The translations under genes were made by a program, and so were the position numbers. DNA of 64,000 nt, from positions 186,001-250,000 of the forward strand of contig JAHDVF020001222.1 of assembly GCA_022606425.2 (NCBI GenBank). Direction: 5' to 3'. Source of the DNA: Lepidostoma basale (Eukaryota; Arthropoda; Insecta; Trichoptera; Lepidostomatidae). Every line of letters starts with the position of its first letter. Within the stretch, counting starts at the first letter, position 1. The notes beneath the pieces were generated by a model that was not told the DNA's origin, made no database searches, and saw only the letters and a list, made by a program, of their open reading frames with translations. Below, one piece after another: positions 1,491-42,789 of the stretch.

Positions 1491-2075
1491 TAAGTAACTT
1501 TTAGAAAAAAGTTTCACAAAAAAACATGAAAATATTTTTTCATTTAAATAAACAGACAGTCGTTTCATAATAATCACGAACTGATATTTCGGAAATTTAA
1601 AATATATTCACCGAAACCAACAACACTAATGTTGATGTCATGCAAACCAATGTTGAAGTAAATATGTCTAATTATTGAATCTAATACTATTGACTGGTTC
1701 TATGGTGGTTCAATGCAAAAAATCATTTTGGTAATATATAAAATAGTGTCATAAATACAAAATAATAATAAAAATATCTTTTTGACGCTTCAGAACTATT
1801 AGATTCGGAATAATAATTTGAAAATGGTGGTTACTTAACAAAAAACATTTTTTTCATTCGCATAAACATGTATTTGCTTTCTGAAATGTTTGCTAAAATC
1901 GAAACAAATATAGTAAAATTATTTACGTGTAGTTAAAATCTGAACCAAACACCTTTATACCCATAGACTAATTTAAACCTAACGTAGGTACTAATCTACT
2001 AAGTGATGTGATTCATTATTTTTGGATGACTGTTGTTTCTACTGTTGTATGCTACGTAATTGGACGAAAAGTAAA
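1490..2075. other. AT-rich spacer, nothing recognised
   Basis: No open frame above about 40 codons with a recognisable product, no splice pair and no inverted ends were seen. Confidence 0.5.
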
Positions 2076-2103
2076 CGAGGTCTGTTCAACAAGTATTTTT
2101 TAT

Positions 2104-2943: not shown

Positions 2944-3148
2944 GCAAAACAAATAACGCTTTGAGGGCGGAGCTTAGATGACCGTTTGTAGGTATACCTA
3001 GTGCGCATGCTAAATTTTTTTCACGACCACAGCGCCACTCAGTCGCTGCCACGCCGTTGAAGAGTGAAGATATTGTCGTCGGATTTTAGTTTTAACGAGA
3101 AAAAGTTGAACAACGTCACTGGATCAAATTTTGATTAAAGCTTGGAGA

Positions 3149-3761
3149 TTCTCAAGTGGAAACTATCCGCAAAATTAAAAAAGAGTTTGGGGACGAAGCA
3201 ATGGGCACCACACAGATAAAGTAATGGTATAACCGCTTCAAAGATGGCCGCTCATCAGTGGAGAGTGAAGTACGATCCGGTAGGCCCTCAACATCCAAAA
3301 ATGATGTTGTCATTGATCAAGTAAGGACCCTGGTGATGCAGGATCGTGAAATAACGATCAGAGAACTTGTTGATGAAGTGAGCATTAGTGTTAGATCCAT
3401 TTATTCCATTTTAACTGAAGATTTGGCCCTCAGAAGGGTCTTAGCAAAATTTGTGCCAAGACAATTGAGCAGAAGCAACTTCGTATGGAGATCGCACAGG
3501 ACATGCTGGAGACTGTGATCAATGATCCCAATCGCTCCCTGTGATTTCTGGCTATTTCCCCAGCTGAAAATGCCTTTGAAAGGGACCAGATTTCAGACCA
3601 GGGAAGAGATCAGGAACATTGCGACGGACCACCTGCGCGCCATACCAAAAGAGTCTTTCCAGCGTTGCTTCCGACAGTGGCAGAACCGTTGGGAGAAGTG
3701 TGTAGCAACTCAAGGGGATTACATTGAAGGGGATTATTGTCATTTAATTGTATCTCAATAA
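3149..3761 (+). pseudogene. Mariner transposase, dead
   Basis: The N-terminal part reads ETIRKIKKEFGDEA, an in-frame stop, then WYNRFKDGRSSVESE and the second HTH (REITIRELVDEVSISVRSIY). The C-terminal part resumes near 3530 with APCDFWLFPQLKMPLKG and ends in a 'RWEKCVATQGDYIEGD' block typical of mariner. The stretch holding the first two catalytic aspartates is missing between about 3518 and 3530, and the frame changes there. It cannot be active. Confidence 0.9.
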
Positions 3762-4044
3762 ATGTTGTTTTTATGAATAAAAGTCGGATACTTTTTGAAC
3801 AGACCTCGTATATTATATTTTATGATGCAGTGTTTATTAAATATGAACTTGAGTTTGTAATAATATTAATATCCAAATAGTATTTTATCAGATTGAAAAA
3901 ACCTCCAGGTTACAGAGCGGTACAGATCAATAGTAAACACGCGATCTTCACAAGAGTAAACTGAGTTAATTTCGTGATATGTGCTAATGCCGTGATATTT
4001 TGTTTTATCTATAATGTATTCACATTAAGCTACGGTCAAACACT

Positions 4045-4225
4045 AAAATTTGTGGATTAATTGTATCTCAATAGAGACGAAGATGCAAATTGGAAACATA
4101 ATATGGTGATCGAGGTGTTTACAGGACTTATGACCTGTCATTGGTTGGGTTAAGCGCGCGCTTTATGTAATACAACATTCCCCATTCCACCTTTCTTACG
4201 ACCACCATGTCTGACTAAAATTTGT
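4045..4225 (+). mobile_element. MITE-M half copy
   Basis: It begins TTAATTGTATCTCAATAGAG and carries CAGGACTTATGACCTGTCAT and CATTCCCCATTCCACCTT. The same text appears at 35105-35300, 35795-36170, 43471-43729, 43960-44165 and 51745-51820. The second inverted end is absent here. Confidence 0.8.
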
Positions 4226-4242
4226 GTACATATAATTTTATA

Positions 4243-4593
4243 TTTATTTCTCTTTTTCTTTTTTATGTATTTTGTATATACAACACTTAAGTTTAAAAAA
4301 ATTAAAATTACATAGACATGTTTCGGACAACCAGTCTTTCTTCAGTGATACTTATTTAAAATATTATAAAATTGTTTATATGATCTGACAGATCTCCCCA
4401 AAAGGGTAGGCGGAAAGAATGGACTATCACATTTGAACCGATTCAGCACTCCAACAATTTTATAATATTTTAAATATGTATATTTATAATATGTATCACT
4501 GAAGAAGAACTGATTGTCATTTTTTTCAATTTTTTCAATGTAAGTGTTGTATATATTACAAAGTATGTATATAAAAAAGAAAAAGAGAAATAA
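4243..4593. mobile_element. Foldback element with long AT-rich inverted ends
   Basis: The left arm TTTATTTCTCTTTTTCTTTT and TATATACAACACTTAAG are mirrored at the right as complements. Inner arms carry a GACATGTTTCGGACAACCAG / CACTGAAGAAGAACTGATTG pair. A scrap of LINE-A (4386-4432, minus strand, 'CTCCCCAAAAGGGTAGG') interrupts the middle. Confidence 0.75.
4386..4432 (-). mobile_element. LINE-A 3'-end scrap
   Basis: ATCTCCCCAAAAGGGTAGGC and AAAGAATGGACTATCACA match the complement of the last codons of LINE-A. It lies inside the foldback element. Confidence 0.65.
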
Positions 4594-4694
4594 AGCATCT
4601 ACAACACAAAGTATGGCGAATATAGAATAAATTAATCTTATTTATTGTTTCTTGAACAATAATGTAACTCAACATTAATATATTAATTGAAACG

Positions 4695-4845
4695 TATGAA
4701 AATGTATGTTTTCAAGAAGTTTTATTATATTTTATGGGAGTTGCATGTTTCGTCTTTCTAAGGCATAATCAAATGTTTGTTTATAAAAAAGCGACACATG
4801 TAATTTCCATAAAATGTAATAAAACTACTAGAAAATATTTTTTTC
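4695..4845. mobile_element. Foldback MITE of the TTCTAGAAGTTTTATTA family
   Basis: GTTTTATTATATTTTATGGG and the complement of a right-hand GTTTTATTACATTTTATGG pair across a short loop. The element also carries TTTCGTCTTTCTAAGGCATA. Single arms of the same family recur at about 8695, 15570, 30425, 40235, 51405, 56550 and 57230. Confidence 0.75.
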
Positions 4846-5046
4846 TTTATTACTAATAAATCTATGTACATTTGCTTTCATAGCACACTTTAAATTTCAG
4901 AAAAGAGCATGAATTAGTCTTGATAGGTAAAAAAAATCAACAGATAAGCATTTGATAATAATGCCCATATGAAAAAATTAACCAATGTCTGTAAGAAAAA
5001 ATATCTTGAAATATTATCATCTACAACATGGAATCAAACATTTTAT

Positions 5047-5298
5047 TACTCCCCATTGTGCGGCTGACTTTATTTGCAGTAAAAAAAGGTGTCTCTAACT
5101 GCAGCAGACTGCATTTGCAGCTCAGACAGATGGTTCCAGTTCATAATAATGTTACGTACATTTTAATATTAAAAAAACTAAAGAATTTTTTTTATAAGGT
5201 ATATTCAAATATGAGCTGCAAATGTAGTATGGCGCAATTTAAAACAATTTTTTGAACTGCAAATGTAGCCCCCAGCACTATAGAGGTTAATAACGCAA
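5047..5298. mobile_element. TTAA-type MITE (piggyBac-like ends), copy 1
   Basis: The inverted boxes TTTATTTGCAGT at the left and ACTGCAAATGTAG at the right flank an AT-rich centre that repeats CTGCAAATGTAG. The right end runs CACTATAGAGGTTAA. Related copies are at 9335-9486 and 10765-10978. Confidence 0.75.
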
Positions 5299-5778
5299 CC
5301 AATAGAATGTTTTATACATATCATTTGTATCATTTTTCGTTTACTTGTATTCAGAATGTGTTAAAATAAACTAATTGAAATCGTAATATCACGTAATTAA
5401 CTCAGTCTAACCTATATTCGATAGATATCATATCAAAATAGTATTTCTAAAATGGCAAAATCATAAATGTGTTTTTGACTAGTGTCACTTCAAAAATTAT
5501 TATATGATACATTAATTGATTTTTCATTACCTATTTTAAAATGATTTTTTTAAATGGCAACATATGTGTTGTAAAATACGTAATATATAAAAAGATTAAT
5601 ATATCATATAAGTATTATATTTATAAAGTGACTCTAGTCATAAACTTAATTTGGACTGTCACATTAGAAATACTAGTGGGACGTATTATTTTATATGTTT
5701 ATAGTCCATTGTTTTGGCCGAAACACTATGATACTTCAACATTATTACTGTTATAATATCATAATTTCTTTTTATTCA

Positions 5779-5933
5779 CTGAGAGTGTCGCGACAACTGT
5801 TTTACCAACCGACGTTGGCATCATCAGTTGTTACAATAAACTCTTACACAATAAACTTACAGGAGTTAATTGTAACACCTGATGATGCCAACATCGGTTG
5901 GCAAAACAGCTGTCGCGACACTCTCAGTGTATA
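5779..5933. mobile_element. Foldback element, about 65-bp arms, just beyond TM6 exon 7b
   Basis: CACTGAGAGTGTCGCGACAA, then CAACCGACGTTGGCATCATC and a GTTACAAT box, are mirrored at the right with few mismatches. The right edge is about 110 bp downstream (gene sense) of the exon 7b donor. Related arms occur at 52715-52765 and at both ends of 56644-57205. Confidence 0.85.
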
Positions 5934-6044
5934 AAATTTTAACAGTAATTTTATCGTAATGTTTCTGTAGAGTATCATTGAGTTTGTAGCAAGTGTACTA
6001 TCTCTCTGTCCATCCACACACCCGGAGAACTCCCTTCCACTCAC

Positions 6045-6148
6045 CTGTAAACCTTGTGCGAGAAATCATTATAGGAGGTAAACATAACGATAGCTCCACA
6101 ACAGACAGATAGGGAGAAAAACACCTGAGTAGTCGCGGCATACCACAC
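6045..6148 (-). CDS. NAAT-like transporter, alternative TM6 exon, version 7b
   Basis: This exon is 104 bp, phase 0 to 2. The acceptor is GTTATAG and the donor CAG|GTGAGT, nearer to consensus than that of 7a. It encodes [14 protein letters not shown], then [15 protein letters not shown] and SHKVY. It shares 21 of 34 residues with 7a and has no stop. Serine follows FFSL, as I recall for other NAATs. Since 104 is not a multiple of three, including both exons or neither would shift the frame. Mutually exclusive use is therefore expected. No other transporter exon lies between the two copies, which argues against a second full gene. Alternative reading: 7b could be an unused relic. Confidence 0.9.
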
Positions 6149-9100
6149 CTATAACACAATCCGAACAAAAAATTAAACACTGTGGGGAGTTCCAAGTTGA
6201 ATGTTGACTGTGTTATAAATCAAGATTTAATAAATGTAATAAAATGCATGCAAGTAAAATGTTATTCGTGTATTATTTAAGAATAAAATAAATATTTATG
6301 AAGAGTGTGCATTTTGTTATTGTATTTTAAGCATATTTTCATGTTGGAAACTAGAATCCGACCAATTATTTGATATTTTCAATTGGAACAATTTAAGTTG
6401 GAAAAATAGACGAGCGTGCATGTAACGAAGTATGAATAAAGCTCGAGAGGTGTGTCGGGACAGAGTTAGTTAACAACTTACCATAACTAGAAAAAATGAC
6501 GTACTATTTTATATTTCACCGAAATCTTAATCGTTTATTTTTATATTCTTAAATATATGTGAAGTACGGACGGCTTTCATCCATATGTTGCCAACTCCAT
6601 GCTTCACTTCCATACATAATGACAGGTACAAGAACACCATTGTGCATTGTCATTTTAGCTTTTTTGGAAAGGCTTATGTTTATTAATATAATATATTTGA
6701 ACTGTTATTATATTATATATTTCATTACCTTACAAAATGAGTAAGTATTCGAAAACAATGCAATGCAATTTTGCAATTACAATGTAATTTTAAATGTTTT
6801 CAATCTTAATAAATTTTTTGTTCGGTCTCATTACGATATACCTCATAATTTATTTATTTATTATTATTCTACGTGCATGACACGATGTATGAATATTGAG
6901 GAAGCGAGAGACGTATGTCAGAAAAGAAGTGTGTCTGTTCATTATTTCTGCCTACCACTTCACCTACCACTTCTGCCTACCATTATTTCTGCCTACCACT
7001 TGATGGTGAGTTAGTTAGTTTTAGTTAATAAACATATCATAATATTAATAAGCAAAACCGAATGTCGCCGAAGAAAGAATACGAGAATATTTTGAATACT
7101 CGATCGAGAGAGAAATACTTATTTGAATTTAGTTCTGATTCTGAATCTAATTTTGTTCTGCTTATTGTTGTATTATATGGCAAAAGTGTAGAAAACAAAA
7201 GTAGAACAATTTAACTAACTAACTGACTAATCATCACGCCGTCTCCTCGAAGGGGTAGGCAGAAAGAATGGACTGCCACACTTTTCTTTCCTGACATATT
7301 TCTCTCGCTTCCTCAACATTCATACATCGTGTCATGCACGCGCGTCGATTTCTCTGACTCCTCACATGGCCGACATTCAATATTTGATTTATTTGATCGT
7401 GCCACGTTTTCCTCGGTCTTCCTCTATTTCTGATTCCATTTACATAAACATATAATTTTTTTACCATTCTTTCTTCATTCATTCTTTCCATATGTCCAAA
7501 CCATCTTAATGATCCTTTCATTATTTTGTTCATGACACTATCATTCGCAACGCATTCACTTCTTATATTTTCATTCGACACTCTATAATACACAGAGTAT
7601 CCACACATTCGTCTAAGAGATCTCATTACTACTGCATTTATTCTACTTTCATCCTTCTTTTGCCAGTTCCATGATTCGCTTCCATACATAAGGGTCGGTA
7701 GAAGAACACCATTGTGCACTAATATTAATAAGCAAAAACCGAATGTCGTCGAAGAAAGAGTACGAAAATATTTTGAATACTCGATCGAGAGAGGAATACT
7801 TCTTTGAATTTCATTCTGATTCTGAATCTAATTTTGAATTTTGTTCTAATCATTATTGTATTATATGACAAAAGTGTAGAAAACAAAAGTAGAACAATTC
7901 GGTATTGTTAATAGTGAAATGTTAACGTGTGTGTGAAAAAAAGGTACAACTTATTACTGATAACGATCGTAGAGTTAACCATGTTTCATATTATAAAATC
8001 TTTATTTCTATGAATATTTCACGGGTTGCAACTATAGTGTTTTATTAGTGGCCTTCTAAATATAAAGATATCCTATCTATCCGTACTAAAACAAACAGAG
8101 ACATTTGTATTAATACGTAATATTCGTAATACATTTCCCAAGGTGTTTGGAACAATTTGCCTGTCTCGAGTGTTGTAAATTGTCGCATTGTTTCAGATAG
8201 TAAAATTATAAATAATTTGGTCAACAATGGCTTGTTTTAGTGACATTTTTAGTGTGGCCAACTAGCCATATCAGCGTTGGTGAATATTTTAAAATTCCGA
8301 CTCGTTACGTTATGTTCTTTTTGCAATTCGCAAAAGGAAAAAAGCTAACGATTATAATGACACTACTCAACAAATGATAGATTATATACACTTCATTTAT
8401 TGCTAATTGTGGTATTGTATATTCATGGAAGATTCAAAAGACATGCATATAATAAAGAAAAGAGAGAAATTTTTTATGTACAATTTTAAGTAAGTCGTTT
8501 GTAGTGTTGAGTCTTGAGTGTTTAGATGTCAATTGTTAAAAAAGTCTCGAAGCATGTCCAGAAATTAAAATATTTCAGAAATTGAAACATTTCAAAATGT
8601 CACATATCAATAATATTAAATCTAACATTTAAATTATAAGCTACTACTTGTATAATATGTGTCTACATGATTTTCAACTAAATGACATGATTCTAGAAGT
8701 TTTATTGTATAATTTATGCGAATGATTTGTTTCGCCCGTCTAAGGTCCATTTACACTGAACAGTCATCAGCCGATACCGACACGTCACAATATAAATAGC
8801 CTTGAATCTCACCGACTCGTTATCTCAAATGCTATAATCAAATCCCCGTCGGGGGTTGCCGAAGAAAGCACCTACCTAAATAAAATTGACACTTAATAAA
8901 AATTATCAATAATTTTCATGAGAAAAGTATATTAGTGATCATATTTTGAAAAACGTGTTTTAAGAACTACTTATAAATTATTATATAAAAAAAATGTATT
9001 GGATCACGTCAATTACCCTAATTACAATATTCTACTCCTTTAACTCGTGTATATAAACAGCAGCGCGTTTGAATTTCGCTACATTTGGCAATGTCATTCA

Positions 9101-12100
9101 CAAACTTCTATTCGTATTTATAACATAATTTAGAATGGATTCCAATTTGTTGATGTCTCGGTATGTAGAATTATGCAAATTTTATTATTATTATTATTAT
9201 TTTAAATTTATTTAGTTATAAAAAAATTACACATTTCTTACAACTAGTATTATAAATGACATTTTTAATATAAGCATATGACACAATTGTTTGTCTCAAT
9301 GTTTATCAATGTTCATTAACCACAATTATTTGCAGTGAAAATTTGTCTAGAATTTTGATAGTCCCACTTCGTCGTAATATTACGTACAATTTAGTCGTTA
9401 ATATGTATAAACTGTAAATGTAGTCTACCACAGTTCCAACAATTTTTTTGGACTGCAAATGAAGTCAGTCGCACTATAGGGGTTAAGCGTCAAGTCAGTT
9501 TTGATGTTTGGAAGTAAGTAAGTACGAATATTAAGTCGACATAAACGTGTGCATAATTCATAAAAATTCGTACACATTACATTTATATTGTATAATACGC
9601 AATAAAAGCAGGCATTTGAAAAGCGAATAATCTTACTAGACGGCTCTAATCTTCCTTTACCGGTACTGTATACCAAATACACATTGCTATATTTTTTTTA
9701 ATACAACAAATTATTGGTTAAGATTTTCACTATTTTTTTTATGTGTATACATTCTCTGATTGGTGAAAATAATTCATTATTACATAATAATGAATTCTAA
9801 TTTGTCAATTTGAATTCTAATTTGTTGTCACAGAATAAGTATTTTTTATTGAAAATTGGAGACAATGCACCAATACAAACAAATTATACAGTGTGCGACT
9901 CACTAGTGGCACAATGTCGCGTATTAATGTGTGAAGAGTTAATAATTTTATACACAACACAAATTGCGTTCTTGTATTAAAATATCGCACCTTCGGTAAG
10001 ACAAGGGCATAATTGTTAAAAATTCCCAAAATGAGTTAAGTATGCCAATGTATTTTAAAAACATCCCTTTATCTGGAGGAACAAAGTCGCTCATTAAGAT
10101 CAGTCTCATTTTGCCAGAGGGCGATGGTGTATAATCAATATAGCCAGAATAACACAATATTATTCTTCAAAAATTTTAAAATGTCTCTAATGAAAAATTA
10201 CAAAACGTGCAATTGTGCCTTTGTCTTACGATATGTAATCATGTATTCGTGATCGCGAGAGAGACAAATTATTAGTCATTTCGAATATTCAAATCAAATC
10301 AAATCAGTTTATTTAATCAACAGACATTACAACATTTATTTTTAAGACATCTGTTGAGAACAGGTAAAATAATATATTGTGTATACTCGTAGTATACTAC
10401 CAGAAACGCATGAGAGATGGTTCAACATTAGGAAGACAGGATACTCTCCAGAATTGAATATGAAAGACGTCGATCTCCGAGGAGACCGCGTTCAGTAGAT
10501 TAATTGCTCTTCCCACCGGTGTCACCAGAGGCAGGTTGGTTCGGGTGGCCGGTAGGTAAAAAAATCTATGCTGTCGCTGTCGGAGATATCTATCAGCGTA
10601 TATATTGCGTCCGTCTGAACGCTCTCTTTTTGTTTGCCGAAAATTTTCGTGTTTTTTAGCAAATAAACTATTTTTAATGGTTGTGAATTGAAGCAATATG
10701 TTAAGAACAAGTGTAGTCAATAAACAGCACCGTTATACGCGGATTTTTTCAGCATAGTAATATATAGGTTAACAACCCTCTTTGTACTGATGCCTTCATT
10801 TGCAGTAAATAAAATGGTCTCAAACTGCAGCTAACTACATTTGCAGCTCATAAAAATAACTCCAACAAGGAACTAATGTAAAAAGGTGTATTAAAATGTA
10901 AGCTGCAAATGTAGTCTGCCGCAGTTCGAAACCATTTTTTATGAACTGCTAATGTAGGCAGCCGCAGTATAGGGGTTAAACAGCCCGCAAGGCGGAATAC
11001 ACGCCCAACTAACCTGTAAGTGTTGGCCGAAAAATTGCTGTAACTCGCAAACATCAGAACCGAGCCGAGAAATACACCCAAAGAGAAGAATACTTGGGTG
11101 ATCGCAGCGTACCACACCTGAACAATTTGCATCGGTTAATTATTTACATGCATACAGCAACACATATAGGATGTTTTTTTTAGAGGTTTGGTTTTTAAAC
11201 TGGCAACATTGTTTCTACAGACTGTCAATTTGACAATTGACAGTTGAATTGTAGTCAGTACGTTTTGCCATTTTACCATAAATAGACTGACGTCAGAACA
11301 GCGCTTGTAAATTGTGCAAATTTATTTTGAAAATCATGGTTCGGTTCGACGTCCAGTTTACGGTCGACATAATCGTCCATCCGAGCAAGTTATTCGGAAG
11401 ACCGTGAATCGTTTTTACACCACGTACACACTAGAGTTAGTGGATAATCCACAAAGACGACAATTGTCGAAAATTGGATTTCACGATTGCGCTTCATTCG
11501 AGCTAGCCGTGGCGCTCATATGCCCGAAATCATATTTAAACAATAATGGCAGAAAATTATCTATTAAATAAAGCCAATATCATAGACATTAACAGTGTGT
11601 TTTTTTTTTCATTTTGAATATGTATTGTATACCTCCAAAAAAACACCCTATAATTGTGCCATGAAACGTGAGTTTGCAGCAAGCAGAATATGTTTTAATA
11701 TGTTAATATTAATATTAGTTTTTACAAATGACGCGTGTATTACAGTTATTAGTAAATAAAATAATATATATATTTTGTTAGTGGTTAAAATAAAGTTGTT
11801 ATTAGAATTTTGTGAAAAGTAAACCAACTTATATAAGTCATCCAAAGAGAGTTAAGCATAATAGACTCCACACTATTCTATCCTGACACACATCTCGAGC
11901 ATTCTCTAAATTCATGCATCGTTACACGCATTTTTCAAAGTAGGCAGCCTTTATAGTAACTGATTATTTTGACCTTCTTCTTCTTTTATGAATAGATCTG
12001 ACGATCTGTGACACAGAAATCATGTCTCGTCGGATAATGAGGTCCAGCTGTCCTTCCATCTCTTAAGCGGTCTTCTAGGTGGGCGGCGTCCGGAGGGAAT

Positions 12101-15100
12101 TTCATAAGCGGCTGTATATCCAAGTCTGTCACCATCCATTCGGGCTACATGGTATCTTCTTCTGGATCTACTCCACTGAACGATATCCTCTATTTCGCAA
12201 GCCTTTCCCATGTCTACGTTGCGGACACGATCTCGGAGAGTTCCTCCAGTAATTGATATTAGGACCTTCATCTCCGATGTTCCTAATAATTCCCTGTTTC
12301 GCACAGCGTCGGCCCACGTCTCAACAGCAAACGTCATGACATTGTTTTGACCGTGCCTTCTTTTTTCCAGCTTACCTCTAATTCTTTTTCCATTCACAAA
12401 CTTCTTTGAGTATCATGCCAAATCGTCACAATGTTGACTATCATTTTACAGTAAGTGTCTCTGTCCTTGGCAGTTCGAAACAGCGTCTCAATGCTTCTCA
12501 ATGCGTCTCAATGCAGCGACTGCGCTTATTTTGAGAAGCCAGGATATTTGCCTCCTGCCAACACCTCGTCGAAACGGTATTTTACTTTCAATGACCAGGT
12601 GACGAAATTATTACTTTCTATTTTTAAATATAAATTCTTCTTCTGTTATTTCCATTTGTACAAACTATTTTAATGACATATTTATCTGCCTTTCATTATA
12701 ACAGTATCATTTTTTCATCCAGTTTCCATTTAATTATTATATTTTTAATTGTCTTCCACCGTATTAGTGTTACTGGTACATTTTAGTAGTTCGAAGATAT
12801 GTTAAGTACACCTACTACATTTTAGTAGTTCGAAGATATGTTAAGGAAGACGTATTTGAAAATTTACTCTACAAACACTTCGTGGCGATTGGAAACGATA
12901 TGTGGTCAAAAATGTACACAGAGTTAAAATGATTGTTAGTAGATGTTTAGATGTTTAATAATAAAAATTAAGAGAGTGGTAAAGTTATCAAAAGTGTTAA
13001 TTTTTCATTTATTTTGTCTCAATATAATAACTTAAGTGAAATAACATACCTTTGGATTGTATAGTTCCTCCCATTGCGGTTTAATGAAGAAAATAATGCC
13101 ATCGACAGCCCCTTCTAATGTTGAAGCTCTGTAGAAAAAATATTATCAGTGTATTGTCGATTAGAAGTTTAAACATATTTATATTTTATAAATAAATTGT
13201 TAATAATAAAGATTCATTTAATGTTTTACAGCACAAATAACAAATAAACACACTGCTTTTATATTATTTATTTTCTGCAGTTCAAAGAACAAATTAACAC
13301 ACTGCAATTATATTCTTTATTTTCTGCAGTACAAAAGACGAGTAAAATCAATGCAATTATATTATTCATTTTCTGCATTTTAAACAACAAATAAACTCAC
13401 TGGAATTATATTATTTATTTTCGGCAGTTCAAACAATGAATAAACTCACTGAATTTATATTGTTTATTCTCTGCAGTTCAAACAATAAATAAACTCACTG
13501 CAATTATACTATTTATTTTCTGCAGTTCAAACAATGAATAAACTCACAATTATATTGTTTATTTTCTGCAGTTCAAACAATGAATAAACTCACTTCAATT
13601 ATATTGTTTATTCTCTGCAGTTCAAATAATGAATAAACTCACTGCAATTATACTATTTATTTTCTGCAGTTCAAACAATGAATAAACTCACTGCAATTAT
13701 ATTGTTTATTCTCTGCAGTTCAAACAATGAATACACTCACTGCAATTATATTGTTTATTCTCTGCAGTTCAAACAATGAATAAACTCACAATTATATTAT
13801 TTATTTCTGCAGTACAAACAACGCATAAATACACTACGATTATACACACGTTTTCATTTGAATTAATTAATAAATCCAAAGTGTGAAAGATTCGATTACT
13901 TATTAAGTAATCGAATCTTTCACACTTTGGAAACAGTAATAGTTTTTTAATACTAGAGTATTAACTTAGAAGTTATCGAAAACAATCCAAATATTCACCT
14001 GATGAGAAGAGCAATCATGACAACATAGGGAAATATGGCCAGGAAATAGGCCGCCTTGCCAGAGCTTTGCACTCCCTTGATCATGACCAGGAAAATCACC
14101 ACCCAGGAGGACAGAAGACACAGCATCAAGCGCCAATCAGGGATACCTACAAATGTTTATATGTCGAATAACTATACATATTTACCATATTTTTTCTTAC
14201 ACACGTGCTTTGAAAGTTATAAGGAATATCTCATATGTTGAGTTAAAGAGGACTGTAGAAGACTGAGCGTAGTGAAGACGATAAGGGGCGGTGGCCTGCT
14301 TTTGTTTGTTTGCTACGTTCAGCAGTGGAATCGAACCCGAGATCTTCGGTGTGGTAGTCATAGCTGTTCATAGCTGGCCTAGATTCATACCACGAAGGCC
14401 ATCTATTTAAAAGTCGAAAAAGGTTTAAAAAATGCGTTCTATTTTGCACCTTGTTTCACTCTCAAATTTCAATCAGGGCAAATACCAAAACCAACCGTTA
14501 GCGCCTTAAGAGAAACTAATTCCAAATACGTCAAAAATATACTGGATGAATTCAAAAATATTAATATAAGTTTAAAACCAATGTAAAATAATAAATATAA
14601 TTTAATTGTCGGCCATGTGAGGAGTCAGAGAAATCGACGCGCGTGCATGACACGATGTATGAATGTTGAGGAAGCGAGAGAAATATGTCAGGAAAGAAAA
14701 GTGTGACAGTCCATTCATTCTGCCTACCCCTTTGGGGAGACGGCGTGATGATTAGTTAGTTAGTTAGTTTAATTTAATTTTAAGTTAACTGTCGCCAAGA
14801 TTTTCACTTCACTTACCGATGCCGTTGTCAATATTTGGAATCTGCCTTAGAACTTCAATTCTGTAAAATAAATATAAAAAAACAAATTGAGATTTTATTT
14901 TAATATTTTTAATACATTTGTAAACAGAGATAAGGAAGCATCAAGTTAATTTTTCTGCTAAATTTATTAATTTTTTATTTAACATTGAGGATTTTTTTAT
15001 ATCTAAAACAATGTTCCAATCTCACAAATCAGAAAATAACATGATACATGATTACTAGTTTGAATAATATGAGTTTACACGAGTAATAATGAAAGAATCA

Positions 15101-18100
15101 GGTAAAAACTATGCTGGACGGTTTTTAAAGTAGGTAACTTCTCAGAATGGCACCAGCCATATTATTATGTAATCTCTGTATTGCTGCTAGCCCTAATTTG
15201 AAGCAATCTACGCTTCGATCAGCATACTCCTCAGCAATAGGCAGATTAGTTAAGCCAAAACGCAGCCCCTGGAAAAATTTCGGAGATCTGGCTTTTGCGA
15301 TGGCAGTTCCATCCTGGAATATCTATGCTTCCTGCACGCCTCAGATGCATTGATAATTCGACTGATTTTAAATCTAGCTCAAAAACTCACCCTTTCAAAA
15401 TATCACATAAAATATAAACAACTATTATCTGATTGCTGGTGTTAGATGCAGCTCCCATGACTAAAAAACATTGTCAAACCTCCCACCCAATCACGAAAAC
15501 AGTGCTAGGTATACAAATAAGCCTAATTATTATTTATTGTTTCTTGAACAATGATGTAAAACTCCGTATTAAATAATTAATATACATATACAAAATATTT
15601 GATAATGCCTTAGAAGGGCGAAACATGTCATTCCCATAAATATAATAAAACTTCTAGAAAACTGACGTTTTCATTCGTATTAAATACCTAATTATTATTA
15701 TTCTCTGGATGCCCGAGGGATACTGTCTGGGACAATAAGCATATGCTAGTGAAAGGCAAACATAGGATGTATAAAACATGTTTCAGTCTCATAATGACTT
15801 ACGGAATCGAAGCAAGAGCAGACACTGTCAGAACAGAACATCTCCAAAGAGTAGCAGAAATGAAAACATTGCGACCCATCGTGAGTAGAACCCTTAGAGA
15901 TAGGATACCCAACGAAGAGACTCGCAGATCTTGCAAAATTGATGAGATGGTGAGATGGAGTAGGCAAAGAAGACGATTCTGGAGAGACCACATCAAGAGG
16001 ATGAATCCAGCGAGGATTCCTAAGATCGAGAGAGAGAGAGAGAGAGAGAAAGCTGGACGTTTACATCACAGGAAGAAAATTGATATCCTGTTTAAACATA
16101 TCGCAAGATCTACAATAAGAAAAAGAAGAAGAAGAAGAAACTAAACAATCATTACGCTTTCTCGTACGAGGAGGCAAACAGGGTAGAGCGACACACATTG
16201 TTCTATCTCTGTCCTGATATAATGATAATAATTTTAAAAAATGTATACAATACCAGGAACGAATGAGAGATGGTTCGACATTAGAAATACAAGATACTCT
16301 CCAAAGTCAAGAGTATTTGTCTTCTGAACGTACGATCATGTTCAGGAGTTTGATTGCTCTCCCCACCGGCATCACCAGAGGCAGGTTGGTTCTGCATACT
16401 GGGAGATAAAACAGTCTGTGCTGACGCTGTCGAAGATAACCATTCGGAACTTAAAGATACATAGCCTCCAAGATGACGGAATTCTCAAAAAATCTGAAGA
16501 TCTGGGCAAGTGTGCACCCATCCTTCTTATCTGTAAGCTATTGGTCCCCAGCATACCCAAGAGGAATGCAGTGGCATTTTATAGCTTCGACCGGTTCCTT
16601 CTAGGCTGGTTCGACCCTTAGAGATAAGGACCAGGAAGACAAACAAAGAGATGGAGGGAAGGTTGGACATCTTCATCACAGGAAGAAATTTGATATCCCA
16701 TATAAACAGATGGAAAGATCTACAGTAAGGTGAAGCCGAAGAGTAGGTATAAAACATAGAGTGCGAACATAGAGTGCGTGAATCATGCAATGGAAGAGAA
16801 CTCACATAAAAAAGAGCTCCGAGCTACTGGTTGTGTTGGCGCTATTGGAAGCGTTGCTCTTGTCGGAGGCTGAGAAGCAGTCCGGGCCCCACTCAGGGCG
16901 GCAGTAGGACCACGGCAGCGTCTCGCTGCAGGACATGGCGAGGTAGAAGAGCGTCAGGCCCATCAAGGACACGTAATATGACACGATGGACGCGTTGGCG
17001 ATCAGCTGACCGACACCGATACCTAGTAACAAGCAGGCGATATTATTGTACATAATAATAAATAGGTTTCTATTATTATATTACATTATTAAGGCAGGCA
17101 CACTGAAGCACAGCGCAGAGACGACGCCGCTGAGAGGAGGAGGAGAAAGGAGAGACCACTGGGAGACGGTGACGGCTCCACTACAGGCGCCTTCCCCTGC
17201 CCCAGATGCCCCAGAATATGTGGGTCCAGGATCGGGCTCTTCAGTCACATGCGGACCCACAACCGTGAAGGACAGTCTTCCTCGGACACGAGGGACAGCC
17301 GATGATGATGATGACATTATTATAATATAAGAAGTGAATGCGGTGCGAATGATGGTGTTGTGAACAAAAGAATGAAAGTATCATTAAGATGGTTTGGACA
17401 TATGGAAAGAATGAATGAAGAAAGAATTGTAAAAAAGAAAATATGTTAACGATGTAAATGGAACCAGAAATAGAGGTAGACCGAGGAAAACGTGGCACGA
17501 TTAAATAAATCAAATATTGAATGTCGGCCATGTGAGGAGTCAGAGAAATCGACGCGCGGGCATGACACGATGTATGAATGTTGAGGAATCGAGAGAAATA
17601 TGTCAGGAAATAAAAGTGTGGCAGTCCATTCTTTCTGCCTACCCCTTCGGAGAGACGGCGTGATGCTTAGTTAGTTAGTTAGTTATATTTATCAATGAAA
17701 GCGAAAACAGCCGTTCACAACGGAGTTCTGTTCCTATCCCTAATGTATGGAAGCGAAGCATGGAACTGGCAGAAGAAGGATGAAAGCAGAATAAATGCGG
17801 CAGAGATGAAGTCCCTAAGACGTATGTGTGGTAGTACGATATACGACAGAATCTCAAATGTTGATATAAGAAAGGAATCTAGAGCGGAAGAAGATATTAT
17901 AAACAAAATTATGAAAGGATCGTTGCGATGGTTCGGACATATGGAACGCATGGATGGAGAAAGAATAGTTAAGAAAGTATACGTTAATGATGTAAATGGT
18001 GTACGGAGTCGAGGCAGACCGAAGAAAACATGGCATGACCAAATTAATCAAATTTTAATGGTTGGTCATGTGAGAAGTTGGAGGAATCGACGTGCGTGTA

Positions 18101-21100
18101 TGACTCGTTGTATGAATGTGGAGGAAGCTAGAGAGGTTTGCCAGTGTGGCGGTCCATTCTCTCTGCCTACCTCTGCGGGGAAACGGCGTGATGGTTTGTT
18201 TGTTTATAAATAGGTTTTATTCTACGAGTATATAAATTCTCCTTTCAGTTTTTGATAATTAACTTTGTAATAACAAATCATAAGTGCCCATTACTTTAAG
18301 GGATTAATTCAGTTACAACCAGTGAAATATTACCTGTTAAACTTCATTGATAAGCATCGCGCCTTTGGAAATACTCGATGCTGAATGTATTCGATTGAAT
18401 TGCAAAAGCAAAGCTCTAAAAGAAGAAGAAGAAACTTGATTCCACGTTAGTTACAATCATTTTAATATTATTATTTGATTTTTGCAGAGAGATGCGGACT
18501 CTAAGGATAATAGCAGGAAAGACTCTTTGAGATAGGGTGAGGAACACGGCTATCCGCGAAATCTGCAAGGTGGAAGATGTCGTGAGATGGGGCACACAAC
18601 GCAGAAGATACTGGCATGCGCATGTGCAGAGGATGGATCCCACACCTCGATATGTGCGTATCGCAAGACAGATTGTTATCTTTATGAACTAATTTGCTTT
18701 ATGAACGCTCTCCTATTTGCCCCCTTGTGATTTATTTCTGTAAGTATACCTAAAATCCTTGATTTATAATGATCGTTTCTGGATCTTGCAAGCCTACAAA
18801 AACAACATTCGAGCCCAAATCTGCGCAATTTCTGTGGCAATATTTCAAAGAGTTCACGAAAACGTCAGAAAAAGGCTTATTCAGTGTTTTGAGTGTAAGG
18901 GGCGCTATTTGGACGATACTTGGTTTTAAACTATGTAAACATAAATTTTCCTTTATTAGTAAATAGGAATAAATAAATAAAAAGGTTGCTTTTGAACAAT
19001 TTGCGTTTTACTCTATTTTTTAATTCATGCGTCTGCCGCGCGCCACTCTGTATATTACGAGTATCATAGCCTTCCGATGGCCGATACAAACTTCATCTTA
19101 ACAATGTTTTTTTCCAAATTTATGTGCTAATTAATATCGACACGTTTCATACCTGTCGTATAACTGTAAGTAATATACCCTTATCATGTGGAAAACCACA
19201 TTGAAATATCCAATTAACTGATTTGTAAGACGTCGTTTTTATGAATTTATCACCTCAATGAAGCAATAAACTATTAATAGTATGGTTCAAGTTTACGGCT
19301 ACATTGTTAACTTCAAGATCTGTAAAAAGTTTTACGTATCGATAGACAAACCTTAGATAATAATAAATTGAATCATCTTGTGCTTGAGATAATGTAAACT
19401 GTTTAGTAAAGAATATCCACACTTATACAATAAATCAAAAAACTAACTAACTAACCATCACGCCATTTCCCCGGAGGGGTAGGCAGAGAGGATGGATCGC
19501 CACAATAGCCTGTCCTGGCATACCTCTCGGGCTTCATCTACATTCATACATCGTACCATGCACGCACGTCGATTATTCCGACTTCGAATGTGGCCTTGAC
19601 AAGAATAATATCAGTATTGTTTATTTAGATAATGTCAGTATTGTACTATATATAATGTCAATATTGTTAATAGATAATGTCAGTTTTTTTTCGACATGTT
19701 TTGAATCATCGGGAGAACGATATAAACTGAGTTTATATCGTTCTCCCGACCCAACTCAGTTTATATCGTTCTCCCGATGATGAAGGTGAAGGTTCGAAAC
19801 ATGTCGAAACATGTTGAAAAAAAAACTGACATTATATATAATATATAAACAATACTGTCATTATTCTTGTAAATGAATAGTGATTGCATGAGTCAAGTAA
19901 AACGAATGCACATATATAATATTAAAGATATAAGTGGCAGGTCTTACCTTTCATTGCTGGAGATACAACCCACATCCTGACGTTGTTTCTCCCGGTGAAC
20001 TGTCCAACTGCCATTTCCATGTAGTACATCGGCTTTCCGATGAGGAATAGCACAATGATGTAAGGAATCAGAAAGGCGCCGCCGCCATTCTCGTAAGCCG
20101 TGAAGGGGAACCTCCAGATGTTGCCAAGTCCAACGGAGAGCGAGATGCAAGACATGAGCAGATCCAGGCTGTTGGACCATTGCGGCCTCTCTGCTGTGGC
20201 AGCCTGTCGAGTACAATTATTTATTTGTATTGTTTCTACTACTATATGGCTGCGAAACCTGGACTCTGAAAGTGAATGTAATGAATCGGTTGGAAGCGTT
20301 CGAGATGTGGATATACCGCAGAATGCTCCGTATGGACTGATAGGGTCAGTAATGCAGACGTACTGCAGAGCCAATAAAAAGTTGTTGTCAAGTGTGAAAA
20401 TTAGAAAGGTCTCATATTTAGGTCAAGGGGAGAAAAATACCACCTCCTTTGACTGATATTAATTGGTAAAGTGGAGGGACGTCGGGGAGTTGGTAGAAGG
20501 CAGCTGTCCTGGCTGCAGAACATCAAAGAGTGGACAGGAATAACAAGAGTTCAGAACCTGTTCCAAATGGCGCAGGATAGAAATGCCTTTGCTGTAGTGA
20601 TCGCCAACGTTAGGGGGCCCTGACACGCCACCGAAAGAAGAAGAAGAATTGTTACTTAAACAGGATGAAAGTACAATAAATACAATAGAAACGAGATCTC
20701 TTAGACGCATGTGTGAAATAACAACCTTCGTGGTAGAGTGGTAAGAGTCAGGAAGTCCATACTGAAGGTCCCTGCCTTACACTGCCTTTAGTCTGGTGTA
20801 GAATTCATGTGACAATAAAATGCCGATAGATTGGCTACCTATATAAATAATATAATAGCTTAAATAAATTGTATACAGTAATTGGGTTCAAACGACCTGC
20901 TGTAAACAAGAGAAAAAAAATCTGTGTGTGATAGAGTGTCGAATGTAAATATAAGAAGTAAATGCGGTGCGTATGATAGTGTTATGAACAAAATAATGAA
21001 AGGATCATGAAGCCATTAAGAGTAAGATGAGAATCTATAAATCATGCGTAAGACCAATAATAACATATGGCGTCGAAGCAAGGGCAGACACAATAAGGAC

Positions 21101-21759
21101 CAAAAAAGTTTTGAGGACTTCCGAAATGAAGACACTGAGGACGATAGCAGGCAAGATACTGAGAGATCGCGTGAGGGACATCAGAATAAGAGAGATATTT
21201 GAGGTTGAGGATATTATAAGATAGAGCAGACAGCGAAAAAGGGACTGGTACGGTCATGTTCAAAGAATGGACACCACCAGACTCCCCTATATTGCACTAC
21301 ATAATCAGCCTCATGGAACTCGTCCTCGTCGAAGACCTCCTAAAAGATGGAAGGACACCTGGGAGTCTATCTCACAGGAGGAGCAAGACTCTGGAGAACA
21401 GACCGCATAGGTCTACAACAAGGAAGAAGAATAAGAAGAAGATTATTATTGATAAGTTTTTAAAACATTTTGTTTGTATTAGTTTAATTTCAATTTCGTT
21501 TCACACTGTCGTTTGTTACTTATTATATTCATTTATATTTTTTGTATCATGTAATTGGCCTTGCTTTATTGTTTCTACGTGTTTTTTTATAAATGTATTA
21601 CAATCGCTGTTTGTTACTCTAAATAAATTAATTAATTACCTCTGCGATTTCCCCATTATTGCTTGTAGTTTCCGAAGAAGGTAGGTCGAACTTTTCACCA
21701 GGGAGGCCATTTTGTTTTTCCTCCGTGGCTATATAACCCTTATTCACTTGGCCATTTTT
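6045..21759 (-). CDS. SLC6 sodium-coupled nutrient amino-acid transporter (NAAT/KAAT-like), partial, eight exons
   Basis: This is the only host gene recognised. It should be a plasma-membrane symporter that uses the sodium (in some insects potassium) gradient to take up neutral or aromatic amino acids. The exons, in gene order, are 21640-21759, 19948-20203, 16806-17022, 14817-14860, 13999-14146, 13050-13128, then 11014-11117 or 6045-6148. All introns are GT-AG and every phase agrees. The family assignment rests on the TM1 box GLGNIWRFP, the block [12 protein letters not shown], a loop-2 cysteine pair, [13 protein letters not shown] in TM5 and TQVFFSL in TM6. The order and wording fit insect NAATs better than GABA or monoamine carriers. 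The start-codon exon upstream and TM7-TM12 downstream are not seen; the gene probably runs off the left edge. Two TM6 exons are present. A close paralogue such as KAAT1 or CAATCH1 cannot be excluded. Confidence 0.9.
6560..6680 (-). mobile_element. LINE-A fragment (coding middle)
   Basis: Read on the minus strand it contains the codons for [17 protein letters not shown] seen in the longer LINE-A copies. Only this segment is present. Confidence 0.7.
6865..7020 (+). mobile_element. LINE-A 3' end
   Basis: It starts at the [16 protein letters not shown] codons and ends in TGATGGTGAGTTAGTTAGTT. A CTGCCTACCACTT stretch is locally repeated three times, so the copy is also internally expanded. Confidence 0.8.
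7041..7212. repeat. Interspersed repeat R1, left copy
   Basis: ATATTAATAAGCAAAACCGA through GTAGAACAATTT matches 7721-7897 and, more weakly, 29618-29830. The element type is unknown. Confidence 0.75.
7205..7720 (-). mobile_element. LINE-A, 5'-truncated, with a 161-codon frame
   Basis: A non-LTR retrotransposon end: the open frame 7719-7234 encodes [71 protein letters not shown] and [16 protein letters not shown]. This is the region C-terminal to the RT domain in endonuclease/RT ORFs. The tail is TTAG repeats on the minus strand. No RT catalytic part is present. It lies between the two direct repeats R1. Confidence 0.88.
7721..8035. repeat. Interspersed repeat R1, right copy with extended 3' part
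   Basis: The first 175 bp repeat 7041-7212 (ACTCGATCGAGAG box, GTGTAGAAAACAAAAGTAGA). The following part, up to TGAATATTTCACGGGTTGCA, is shared with 29940-30045. Confidence 0.7.
8040..9330. other. Intron 7a-7b interior, mostly unrecognised
   Basis: AT-rich, without coding potential on either strand. One arm of the TTCTAGAAGTTTTATT foldback family sits near 8693-8760. Nothing else could be supported. Confidence 0.5.
9335..9486. mobile_element. TTAA-type MITE, partial copy
   Basis: It shows TTATTTGCAGTG, ACTGTAAATGTAGTCTACCA and a right end GCACTATAGGGGTTAAGC, as in the two fuller copies. Confidence 0.65.
9490..10285. other. Intronic spacer, nothing recognised
   Basis: Several minus-strand frames of 70-85 codons occur but lack any known motif and are AT-biased. 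The text around 10070-10160 (ACATCCCTTTATCTGGAGGA) is not matched elsewhere in the window. Confidence 0.45.
10285..10600 (-). mobile_element. LINE-J 3' end, copy 1
   Basis: Read on the minus strand it ends with AAATAAACTGATTTGATTTG, preceded by TTTACCTGTTCTCAACAGAT. Upstream are codons for an [16 protein letters not shown] motif, then a [15 protein letters not shown] tail. It is the C-terminus and 3' UTR of a Jockey/CR1-like non-LTR element. Other copies are at 16235, 21785, 55165 and 57475. Confidence 0.82.
10765..10978. mobile_element. TTAA-type MITE, copy 2, adjoining TM6 exon 7a
   Basis: Flanked by TTAA on both sides (GGTTAACAACCC / GGGGTTAAAC). Long imperfect inverted arms carry TTCATTTGCAGT, ATGGTCTCAAACTGCAGC and CTACATTTGCAGCT. 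About 215 bp. It ends 36 bp from the exon 7a donor. Confidence 0.85.
11014..11117 (-). CDS. NAAT-like transporter, TM6 exon, version 7a
   Basis: This exon is 104 bp, phase 0 to 2. The acceptor is TTGTTCAG and the donor CAG|GTTAGT. It encodes [14 protein letters not shown], then [15 protein letters not shown] and SANTY. This is TM6, whose central FFSL stretch is unwound in SLC6 structures and contacts substrate and sodium. The second exon 4.9 kb downstream (6045-6148) encodes the same segment with the same length and phases. In 7a a glycine follows FFSL, as in GABA and amine carriers. A TTAA-flanked MITE ends 36 bp beyond the donor. Confidence 0.93.
11164..11653 (+). mobile_element. Non-autonomous mariner-like (ITm) element, copy 1
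   Basis: The left end TATAGGATGTTTTTTTTAGA and right end AAAAAAACACCCTATAA are inverted, with TA flanks. About 490 bp with one frame for a DNA-binding domain and no catalytic domain. A second copy in reverse orientation lies at 50643-51150. It lies in the intron just upstream (gene sense) of exon 7a. Confidence 0.88.
11314..11571 (+). pseudogene. Transposase DNA-binding domain, 85 codons
   Basis: The frame contains [20 protein letters not shown] and [20 protein letters not shown]. The '[13 protein letters not shown]' block resembles the DUF4817-type N-terminus of insect mariner-like transposases. It stops after SIK, long before any DDE motif. Its twin is at 50728-51000. Confidence 0.7.
12000..12400 (-). 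mobile_element. LINE-D 3' end
   Basis: The minus-strand frame 12397-12020 reads [53 protein letters not shown] and [16 protein letters not shown]. This is the end of an endonuclease/RT ORF of a non-LTR family distinct from LINE-A. Confidence 0.82.
12776..12845. repeat. Direct duplication of a 32-bp block
   Basis: ACATTTTAGTAGTTCGAAGA plus TATGTTAAG occurs twice, 48 bp apart. Confidence 0.75.
13050..13128 (-). CDS. NAAT-like transporter, exon for extracellular loop 3
   Basis: This exon is 79 bp, phase 2 to 0. The acceptor is TTTCTACAG and the donor AAG|GTATGT. It encodes [20 protein letters not shown] followed by ELYNPK, the typical loop between TM5 and TM6. It ends in phase 0, exactly what both downstream TM6 exons need. 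Confidence 0.94.
13215..13820. repeat. Intronic minisatellite, 49-bp unit, about twelve copies
   Basis: The consensus unit runs TTCAAACAATGAATAAACTC, ACTGCAATTATATTGTTTAT, TCTCTGCAG. Nearly every unit ends in CTGCAG. Outer units are most diverged. It fills most of the 870-bp intron between the loop-3 and TM4-TM5 exons. Confidence 0.93.
13875..13931. repeat. 57-nt near-perfect palindrome
   Basis: Arms of 28 nt (TCCAAAGTGTGAAAGATTCG then ATTACTTA) pair around a single T. In the pre-mRNA this would be a very stable hairpin 67 nt after the TM4-TM5 exon donor. Confidence 0.93.
13999..14146 (-). CDS. NAAT-like transporter, exon with TM4 and TM5
   Basis: This exon is 148 bp, phase 1 to 2. The acceptor is TTTGTAG and the donor AG|GTGAAT. 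It encodes [14 protein letters not shown] and TM4, then [13 protein letters not shown] and TM5 ([12 protein letters not shown]). The block [16 protein letters not shown] is one of the most conserved stretches in SLC6 carriers. No stop or frameshift is seen. A 57-nt near-perfect palindrome ends 67 bp beyond the donor. Confidence 0.95.
14300..14415 (-). repeat. tRNA-derived SINE, copy 1
   Basis: The minus strand reads GGCCTTCGTGGTATGAATCT, later CACACCGAAGATCTCGGGTT and CGATTCCACTGCTG. GGGTTCGATTCC is a Pol III B-box match. The head resembles copies at 20725, 28140, 30145, 36935 and 48920. Confidence 0.65.
14600..14768 (+). mobile_element. LINE-A 3' end
   Basis: Codons for [20 protein letters not shown] and a tail GATGATTAGTTAGTTAGTTA. 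It is 49 bp from the microexon donor and antisense to the host gene. Confidence 0.85.
14817..14860 (-). CDS. NAAT-like transporter, 44-bp microexon (end of loop 2)
   Basis: This small exon has an acceptor TTTTACAG and a donor G|GTAAGT, phase 2 to 1. It encodes [14 protein letters not shown]. It joins the preceding ...SSSELFF through an Ile codon split across the junction (AT|A), and the following ...IPDWRL through a split Gly codon. The result matches the wording of insect NAATs between loop 2 and TM4. It was identified from the two flanking exons, the phase constraint and the splice sites. Confidence 0.88.
14870..15560. other. Intronic spacer with one weak frame
   Basis: A plus-strand frame at 15147-15353 ([19 protein letters not shown] and further) is antisense to the host gene and unrecognised; it may be a scrap of a retroelement. 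Nothing else was seen. Confidence 0.4.
15565..15672 (+). repeat. Arm of the TTCTAGAAGTTTTATTA foldback family
   Basis: GATAATGCCTTAGAAGGGCG, AAACATGTCATTCCCATAAA and ATAATAAAACTTCTAGAAAA match other arms in the window. Confidence 0.7.
15700..16142 (+). mobile_element. LINE-D 3' end, 133-codon frame
   Basis: The frame 15743-16144 shows [40 protein letters not shown] and [23 protein letters not shown] microsatellite at 16027-16049 replaces the expected proline/arginine-rich end. Confidence 0.85.
16235..16620 (-). mobile_element. LINE-J 3' end, copy 2
   Basis: The minus strand encodes [19 protein letters not shown] and a [16 protein letters not shown] stretch, followed by the family 3' UTR. 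The frame is broken. Confidence 0.75.
16600..16745 (+). mobile_element. LINE-D tail scrap
   Basis: AAGGTTGGACATCTTCATCA, CAGGAAGAAATTTGATATCC and GAAAGATCTACAGTAAG match the end of the copy at 15.7-16.1 kb. It ends about 60 bp before the TM3 exon donor. Confidence 0.65.
16806..17022 (-). CDS. NAAT-like transporter, exon with TM3 and extracellular loop 2
   Basis: This exon is 217 bp, phase 1 to 2. The acceptor is TTACTAG and the donor GTGAGT. It encodes [20 protein letters not shown] and the rest of TM3, then [14 protein letters not shown] and an Asn/Ser-rich loop ending SSSELFF. The two cysteines in [10 protein letters not shown] match the conserved disulfide of SLC6 loop 2. NAS and NTT are plausible N-glycosylation sites. 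A reading frame on the other strand over the same bases is a shadow. Confidence 0.95.
17060..17330. other. GC-rich patch, unrecognised
   Basis: ORFs of 78-96 codons exist on both strands (for example [15 protein letters not shown] on the minus strand), rich in Pro, Gly and Thr. GC content is well above the neighbourhood. It may be a scrap of a transposon coding region; no motif is recognised. Confidence 0.4.
17333..17692 (+). mobile_element. LINE-A 3' end with TTAG tail
   Basis: Starts near the GAATGCGGTGCGAATGATGG codons and ends GATGCTTAGTTAGTTAGTTA. One frameshift occurs at GAAAATATG. The next LINE-A copy begins at once. Confidence 0.85.
17693..18213 (+). mobile_element. LINE-A, TTTG-tail subfamily, 172-codon frame
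   Basis: The frame 17695-18213 reads [60 protein letters not shown] and [19 protein letters not shown]. It is open to the end. The tail is GGTTTGTTTGTTTATA, unlike the TTAG tail of other copies. Confidence 0.88.
18412..18660 (+). mobile_element. LINE-D fragment
   Basis: Codons for [12 protein letters not shown], a stop, [20 protein letters not shown] and [15 protein letters not shown]. The same region is seen inverted at 24272-24560. Confidence 0.8.
18765..18930 (+). pseudogene. C-terminus of a mariner-like transposase
   Basis: One frame gives [20 protein letters not shown], then [20 protein letters not shown] and DTWF followed by a stop. This is the usual end of DUF4817-associated mariner-like transposases. 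The upstream catalytic part is absent. An AT-rich stretch to about 19060 may be its 3' UTR. Confidence 0.7.
19060..19435. other. Intronic spacer, nothing recognised
   Basis: No coding signature, inverted ends or known tail. Confidence 0.45.
19440..19600 (-). mobile_element. LINE-A 3' end
   Basis: It begins with the inverted TTAG tail (ACTAACTAACTAACCATCAC), then the complement of the terminal codons (YPSGE..., [16 protein letters not shown]). Confidence 0.8.
19595..19875. mobile_element. Long foldback element
   Basis: Outer arms carry AAGAATAATATCAGTATTGT and GATAATGTCAGTTTTTTTTC; inner arms carry CGACATGTTT and ATCATCGGGAGAACGATATA. GTTTATATCGTTCTCCCGA is also repeated in tandem at the centre. 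The TM1-TM2 exon donor lies 73 bp to the right. Confidence 0.85.
19948..20203 (-). CDS. NAAT-like transporter, exon with TM1 and TM2
   Basis: This exon is 256 bp, phase 0 to 1. The acceptor ends CTCGACAG and the donor reads AAAG|GTAAGA. It encodes [20 protein letters not shown], the TM1 signature [10 protein letters not shown], then [12 protein letters not shown] and TM2 up to VGQFTGRNN, ending SPAMK. In the SLC6 family the TM1 GNIWRFP stretch is unwound and supplies sodium and substrate ligands, so this is a functional-looking, uninterrupted core exon. A LINE-B fragment begins only about 15-40 bp upstream of the acceptor, so the polypyrimidine tract is partly transposon-derived. An ATG far upstream in the same open frame is intronic and should not be taken as the start. 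Confidence 0.95.
20215..20645 (+). mobile_element. LINE-B 3' end
   Basis: Frame pieces [31 protein letters not shown] and [10 protein letters not shown], then an [23 protein letters not shown] stretch. It is antisense to the transporter and begins beside the TM1 exon acceptor. Confidence 0.82.
20648..21012 (+). mobile_element. LINE-A fragment split by a SINE
   Basis: Left part 20648-20720 (codons for [15 protein letters not shown]), right part 20925-21012 ([20 protein letters not shown]). The two halves are contiguous in intact copies; the SINE at 20725-20850 plus its AT tail lies between. Confidence 0.75.
20725..20925 (+). repeat. tRNA-derived SINE, copy 2
   Basis: CAACCTTCGTGGTAGAGTGG (A-box-like) and the body TTTAGTCTGGTGTAGAATTC followed by ATGTGACAATAAAATGCCGA. 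The B box is degenerate (GAAGGTCCCTGCC). Confidence 0.7.
21012..21440 (+). mobile_element. LINE-D 3' end
   Basis: Codons for [40 protein letters not shown] and IFEVEDIIR, then a [24 protein letters not shown] C-terminus in another frame. It stops about 200 bp before the N-terminal transporter exon. Confidence 0.85.
21640..21759 (-). CDS. NAAT-like transporter, exon encoding the cytoplasmic N-terminus
   Basis: This exon is 120 bp (40 codons, phase 0 to 0). A good acceptor (TTTTTCAG) precedes it and the donor is GTAATT. The peptide begins [18 protein letters not shown] and ends NNGEIAE. It is hydrophilic and acidic, as expected of the cytoplasmic tail before TM1 in insect NAATs. It joins in frame to the next exon, which begins [11 protein letters not shown]. 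The ATG inside it is out of frame, so the true start lies in an upstream exon I could not find. Recognition rests on splice sites, frame and composition rather than on a conserved domain. Confidence 0.75.
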
Positions 21760-42785: not shown

Positions 42786-42789
42786 AATA

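Follow-up and report, generated by a model that had tools for sequence, protein, structure and literature searches.

The stretch of DNA analysed here, hereafter the window, comprises 64,000 nucleotides of Lepidostoma basale (Trichoptera; contig JAHDVF020001222.1, here C317, positions 186001-250000; genome 768.8 Mb) and contains zero N letters. Its left part carries on the minus strand a gene for an amino-acid transporter of the SLC6 family (PF00209), which we call gene A and in which the exon for transmembrane helix 6 (TM6) is present in two versions, 8a and 8b. Exons 2-13 of this gene were modelled: the rightmost six, together with both candidates for exon 8, lie in the window and the rest lie to its left, whilst neither the ATG-bearing first coding exon nor the last exon was found in the gene modelling. 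The numbering used here counts one unfound first coding exon, and exons 8a and 8b are the 7 and 7b of an earlier note on this DNA. The model yields a 572-residue open frame with 8a alone and with 8b alone, and the product matches PF00209 over its full length (profile positions 1-522 of 524), with 505 bits for isoform a and 509 bits for isoform b.

The two TM6 exons were found as the earlier note had described them, with equal length, equal phase, AG/GT bounds and open frames, behind an upstream exon ending in phase 0 (Table 1): on the minus strand 8a is preceded by ttcag and followed by gttagt, and 8b is preceded by tatag and followed by gtgagt. They are identical at 64 of 104 bases, and in 100 kb 8a and 8b match each other with an E value of 4e-12; each also matches, over its whole length, TM6 of SLC6 chains with solved structures (best E 9.7e-6 for 8b and 4.3e-6 for 8a). 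With the TM6 exon of a neighbouring SLC6 paralogue, gene B, both 8a and 8b share the W, the Q, FFSL, Gly 260, the SY-motif Ser and YR. Criteria published for mutually exclusive tandem exons (PMC3228551) are similar length, the same reading-frame phase, conserved splice sites, homology and the same structural part, and the present pair shows 104 and 104 bp, phase 0 to 2 in both, AG/GT, 21 of 34 identical residues and TM6 in both. A working protein requires exactly one of the two: joining both or neither leads to a stop in exon 9, whereas one exon leaves all 572 residues open, in agreement with what had been claimed for the frame.

The proteins of gene A (in its 8a form) and of gene B served as tblastn queries for the surroundings of the pair, C317:150001-250000, at E values up to 1e-3. 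Neither protein revealed a further SLC6 exon between 8a and 8b, and no exon of gene A other than that for TM6 turned up twice in these 100 kb. With three TM6 queries, three TM6 exons fell below an E value of 1e-11 in the same 100 kb, namely 8a, 8b and that of gene B, and none other fell below 0.3. The gene model and the lack of any other doubled gene A exon bear out the proposal that this is an exon duplication within one intact gene and not a gene duplication; duplication of the TM6 exon inside the single gene A is thus supported.

Table 1. Modelled coding exons of gene A (window positions unless marked C317).
Feature	Position	Strand	Basis or remark
Exon 2, 120 bp, N-terminal tail	21640..21759	-	AG/GT bounds, frame open into exon 3
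Exon 3, TM1-TM2, GKP lysine equivalent to KAAT1 Lys102	19948..20203	-	PF00209 match C317:205856-206188, splice model
Exon 4, TM3 and start of large outer loop	16806..17022	-	PF00209 profile search, splice model
Exon 5, 44 bp	14817..14860	-	Length equal to gene B exon 5
Exon 6, 148 bp	13999..14146	-	Length equal in gene B
Exon 7, 79 bp, phase 0 end, common donor for 8a/8b	13050..13128	-	Splice model
Exon 8a, proximal TM6 exon, 104 bp, phase 0 to 2, pocket FFSL-G-V-F-L-G (diverged copy)	11014..11117	-	
Exon 8b, distal TM6 exon, 104 bp, phase 0 to 2, pocket FFSL-S-V-C-C-G	6045..6148	-	
Exons 9-13	C317:185766-185574, 184821-184645, 183353-183254, 182144-181968, 180734-180634	-	Left of window; same frame continued with either exon 8

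Comparison of the two exons with each other reveals that their synonymous sites are saturated, with 21.0 of 22.8 differing, whilst only 19.0 of 79.2 nonsynonymous sites differ; identical bases number 23, 26 and 13 of 34 at codon positions 1, 2 and 3, respectively. When neutral decay was simulated from 8b at d = 1.16 per site, 21 of 34 residues were kept in 0 of 20000 runs, and at d = 0.5 an open frame, intact splice dinucleotides and 21/34 identity occurred jointly in 5e-05 of runs. Synonymous saturation, low nonsynonymous change and the simulations together indicate that each copy has encoded protein for most of its history; that the two were retained for long as coding exons, with purifying selection on each, is supported.

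Judged by its hallmark residues, gene A is a nutrient amino-acid transporter of the insect type represented by KAAT1 and CAATCH1 of Manduca sexta. Like these it exhibits a Lys at the KAAT1 K102 position (GKP in TM2, also present in gene B; position counted in LeuT numbering) and an Asp at the KAAT1 D338 position, which lies within TTLD in gene A and VTLD in gene B. At the position of KAAT1 Thr67 in TM1, gene A has Leu and gene B has Met; PMC8310414 describes this Thr as present only in KAAT1 and CAATCH1, and gene A is thus KAAT1-like rather than KAAT1 itself.

Gene B is a convergent paralogue to the left of the window (C317:161343-172417; loci L010 and L011), of which exons 3-13 were modelled with an open frame; its protein is 64 to 65% identical to that of gene A over 523 residues, and exons 5 to 12 are equal in length in the two genes. 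Across the genome, 32 loci were scanned for TM6, these being 20 stretches round SLC6 matches and 12 other loci; the SLC6 loci came from a profile search in which 82 of 113 candidates were scored and 8a and 8b were not listed, and hence the list of loci is incomplete. One TM6 exon was present at each of 13 SLC6 loci besides gene A, counting those with a TM6 exon in the stretches scanned and leaving out C50 and C413; in the 8 kb scanned of C1200 a TM6 match was absent. For three nutrient-type relatives the scan covered everything between exons 7 and 9, whilst in distant paralogues a second TM6 exon may have escaped it if strongly diverged. At L029 a tblastn match that apparently extended from exon 7 into TM6 was rejected as chance read-through of the intron, which contains a stop.

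The pocket reads FFSL-T-V-C-I-G in the single TM6 exon of gene B, in which Thr occupies the KAAT1-308 position just as it does in CAATCH1, and FFSL-S-V-C-F-G in two genes on C1512. The pocket of 8b fits these sister genes and would be the ancestral-like one, with 8a as the diverged form. In residue identity to gene B and C1512 genes 1 and 2 the contrast is small (22, 23 and 22 of 34 for 8b; 19, 21 and 22 for 8a), and it is clearer in nonsynonymous divergence (dN), which amounts to 0.22, 0.22 and 0.28 for 8b and to 0.33, 0.34 and 0.36 for 8a. In an unconstrained tree of the short TM6 sequences (35 residues), 8a branched outside the remaining four sequences of nutrient type, with a support of 67.

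Three pocket positions in the non-helical part of TM6 distinguish 8a from 8b, namely 256 (Gly/Ser), 258 (Phe/Cys) and 259 (Leu/Cys) in LeuT numbering. In gene A an Asp stands 30 residues after position 256, the same spacing as from S308 to D338 (LeuT N286) in KAAT1, and this fixes the register of the alignment. Position 256 corresponds to Ser308 of KAAT1 and Thr308 of CAATCH1, a difference between these two proteins that affects selectivity and that is described as a selectivity determinant (PMC8310414). In the glycine transporters, Ser479 of GlyT2 (Gly373 in GlyT1) keeps sarcosine out and the mutation S479G admits it, and W482 of GlyT2 (LeuT F259) limits the pocket volume (PMC8602798, PMC9317360). 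Alignment to these published KAAT1/CAATCH1 and GlyT1/GlyT2 mutants upholds the claim that the exchanged helix bears substrate-selectivity positions. Phe at 258 occurs in 8a alone among 15 TM6 exons of the genome. Amongst solved transporters 8a scores best, by a narrow margin, against a dopamine transporter chain and second against a proline transporter, in which TM6 likewise reads SLGV; this likeness points weakly to proline.

Splice sites were scored with a matrix built from 22 exons of genes A and B, in which exon 3 of gene B is seemingly one base off and slightly blurs the acceptor matrix: acceptor and donor reach 3.2 and 8.1 for 8a and 6.3 and 10.8 for 8b. The acceptor of 8a has pyrimidines at 7 of 16 positions, and its donor is GTTAGT. 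Weaker sites at 8a would suit a regulated proximal exon combined with a default distal 8b, for which the scores are a hint.

We consider it probable, judging from sequence, that gene A carries mutually exclusive TM6 exons that switch its substrate choice. The TM6 exon of this KAAT1/CAATCH1-like transporter gene would have been duplicated long ago; splicing would connect exon 7 with one of the two, 8a or 8b, and that one with exon 9, with exclusivity presumably enforced at least by the frame and by decay of mis-spliced RNA, and the outcome would be two carriers differing in one helix alone. The swap would retune substrate choice because pocket positions 256, 259 and 258 change: if GlyT1/GlyT2 and KAAT1/CAATCH1 are taken as models, 8a as the Gly form would tolerate substrates shut out by 8b as the Ser form, with proline or N-substituted amino acids as the first candidates. 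Since 8b combines the ancestral-like pocket with the better splice scores, it is likelier to be the default, and 8a may be the regulated form.

Several observations weigh against this reading. In GlyT1 the reverse change, Gly373Ser, blocks transport (PMC9317360), and position 256 can hence decide function and not selectivity alone. Gly at 256 is present in 10 of the 15 TM6 exons, 8a included, and is unusual among the nutrient-type genes only. The splice scores of 8a lie within the range of constitutive exons at this locus (exons 4, 6, 12 and 13, among others, have acceptors that score no higher) and so do not demonstrate regulation, and the distance of 4.9 kb between 8a and 8b removes a steric reason for exclusivity. 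The inverted repeats of at least 20 bases in window 1-13049 (25 of 29 listed) are not taken as evidence that RNA pairing selects the exon, since they stem at least in part from a dispersed foldback element: copies of it contain the pairs with the longest arms that link the intron behind 8a to the one behind 8b. Exon 8a is also the faster-evolving copy: its dN to C1512 gene 1 is 0.34, whereas 8b reaches 0.22 and gene B 0.19, a difference compatible with adaptation but also with a degree of relaxation. In the SYN motif, 14 of the 15 TM6 exons under comparison retain Asn and 8a has Ser, and this observation made substrate-switching exons slightly less favoured and a silent 8a slightly more so. 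The three nutrient-type sister genes each have a single TM6 exon, in a comparison made within one genome. Finally, as to the order of the exon duplication and the split of genes A and B, four tree topologies are all accepted in the approximately unbiased test (p 0.18 to 0.88; 12 TM6 sequences, 35 residues).

A rival explanation is that only one exon is used and that the other, likelier 8a, is silent, recently dead or giving non-coding transcripts that lower expression. The lower scores of 8a at both splice sites, its faster change and its missing Asn all speak for such an exon, which we nevertheless regard as rather unlikely: 21 of 34 residues have been kept despite saturated synonymous sites, the frame is open and AG/GT intact, and the neutral runs at d = 0.5 described above reproduced this combination at the very low frequency given there. 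The two exons could also be exclusive and both in use, and yet serve to tune ion coupling (Na+/K+), chloride dependence, leak current or transport rate instead of substrate. TM6 does contribute to ion sites: S479 of GlyT2 contacts substrate and ions, A481 of GlyT2, at the 258 position, takes part in the third sodium site by its backbone, and the substrate preference of KAAT1 shifts with the driving ion. The best-characterised of the changed positions, 256 and 259, are however reported mainly as substrate determinants in the papers cited above, and we hold tuning of ions in place of substrate to be unlikely.

A partial gene duplication or an assembly error, by which one of the TM6 exons would derive from another transporter gene, appears very improbable. 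SLC6 genes are indeed clustered here, with gene B convergent on the same contig, but the other exons of gene A have no second copy in 100 kb, gene B has an open frame across exons 3-13 and a TM6 exon that belongs to it, and 8a and 8b are far too diverged to be haplotypes. Discovery of a full second transporter owning the distal exon had been named in the earlier note as an outcome that would overturn its proposal; within the 100 kb no such gene was found, gene A exons other than TM6 not being doubled and gene B having a TM6 of its own.

The foldback (palindromic) element is present in three copies in the introns round 8a and 8b (window 5020-5310, 9400-9500 and 10740-10990) and also near 176 kb of C317 and in L013, whilst a 19-base motif of the element occurs nowhere else in the window. 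The intron ahead of exon 7 contains a 49-bp minisatellite of about 12 copies (window 13243-13844), six units of which bear the acceptor-like gtttgaactgcag on the minus strand, and the intron between 8b and exon 9 contains a 142-bp tandem array (window 1-1116). Five open frames (window 7234-7827, 17683-18213, 37321-37728, 42757-43257 and 44961-45371) resemble the ends of proteins of retroelements lacking long terminal repeats; the first two of them sit in introns of gene A, and no Pfam match was obtained in the 3 of these 5 frames that were scanned.

Mutually exclusive tandem exons are a known kind of gene structure, transporters included: they have been described in the carriers SLC25A3 and SLC39A14 (PMC5740500) and in SLC12A1 (PMC9741552), where a segment of a membrane carrier is swapped, as proposed for gene A, although these carriers belong to other families. 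An SLC6 gene with mutually exclusive TM6 exons was not encountered among the matches listed from the open-access literature searched, with subscription papers, preprints and database annotations, in which records may exist, lying outside that scope; one candidate precedent, PMC5942844, was set aside since "mutually exclusive" there refers to ligand binding and not to exons. Although KAAT1 and CAATCH1 had at one time been regarded as possible splice variants, they are described as products of gene duplication (PMC8310414). Unlike that pair, gene A holds both pockets in one gene, with Gly as one of the choices. In case of GlyT1 (SLC6A9) and GlyT2 (SLC6A5), the same Gly/Ser difference in TM6 separates the substrate ranges, but the position is fixed per gene in two vertebrate genes, in contrast to the candidate splice exchange in gene A.

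Going beyond the exchange of the helix itself, it is possible, though we put this forward tentatively and by analogy, that one SLC6 gene provides two S1 substrate sites and that, in a cell of epithelial or neural type, regulated splicing determines which of two nutrient ranges is taken up, such as proline or N-substituted amino acids with 8a and other neutral amino acids with 8b. If true, such a dual S1 site would be a within-gene version of the differences between GlyT1 and GlyT2 and between KAAT1 and CAATCH1. If both forms are made, gene A would offer a natural pair of transporters that differ in TM6 only, at positions with published substrate-shifting mutants, and the contribution of TM6 to substrate choice would be directly testable without designed mutants: splicing would here do what gene duplication does elsewhere in the SLC6 family.

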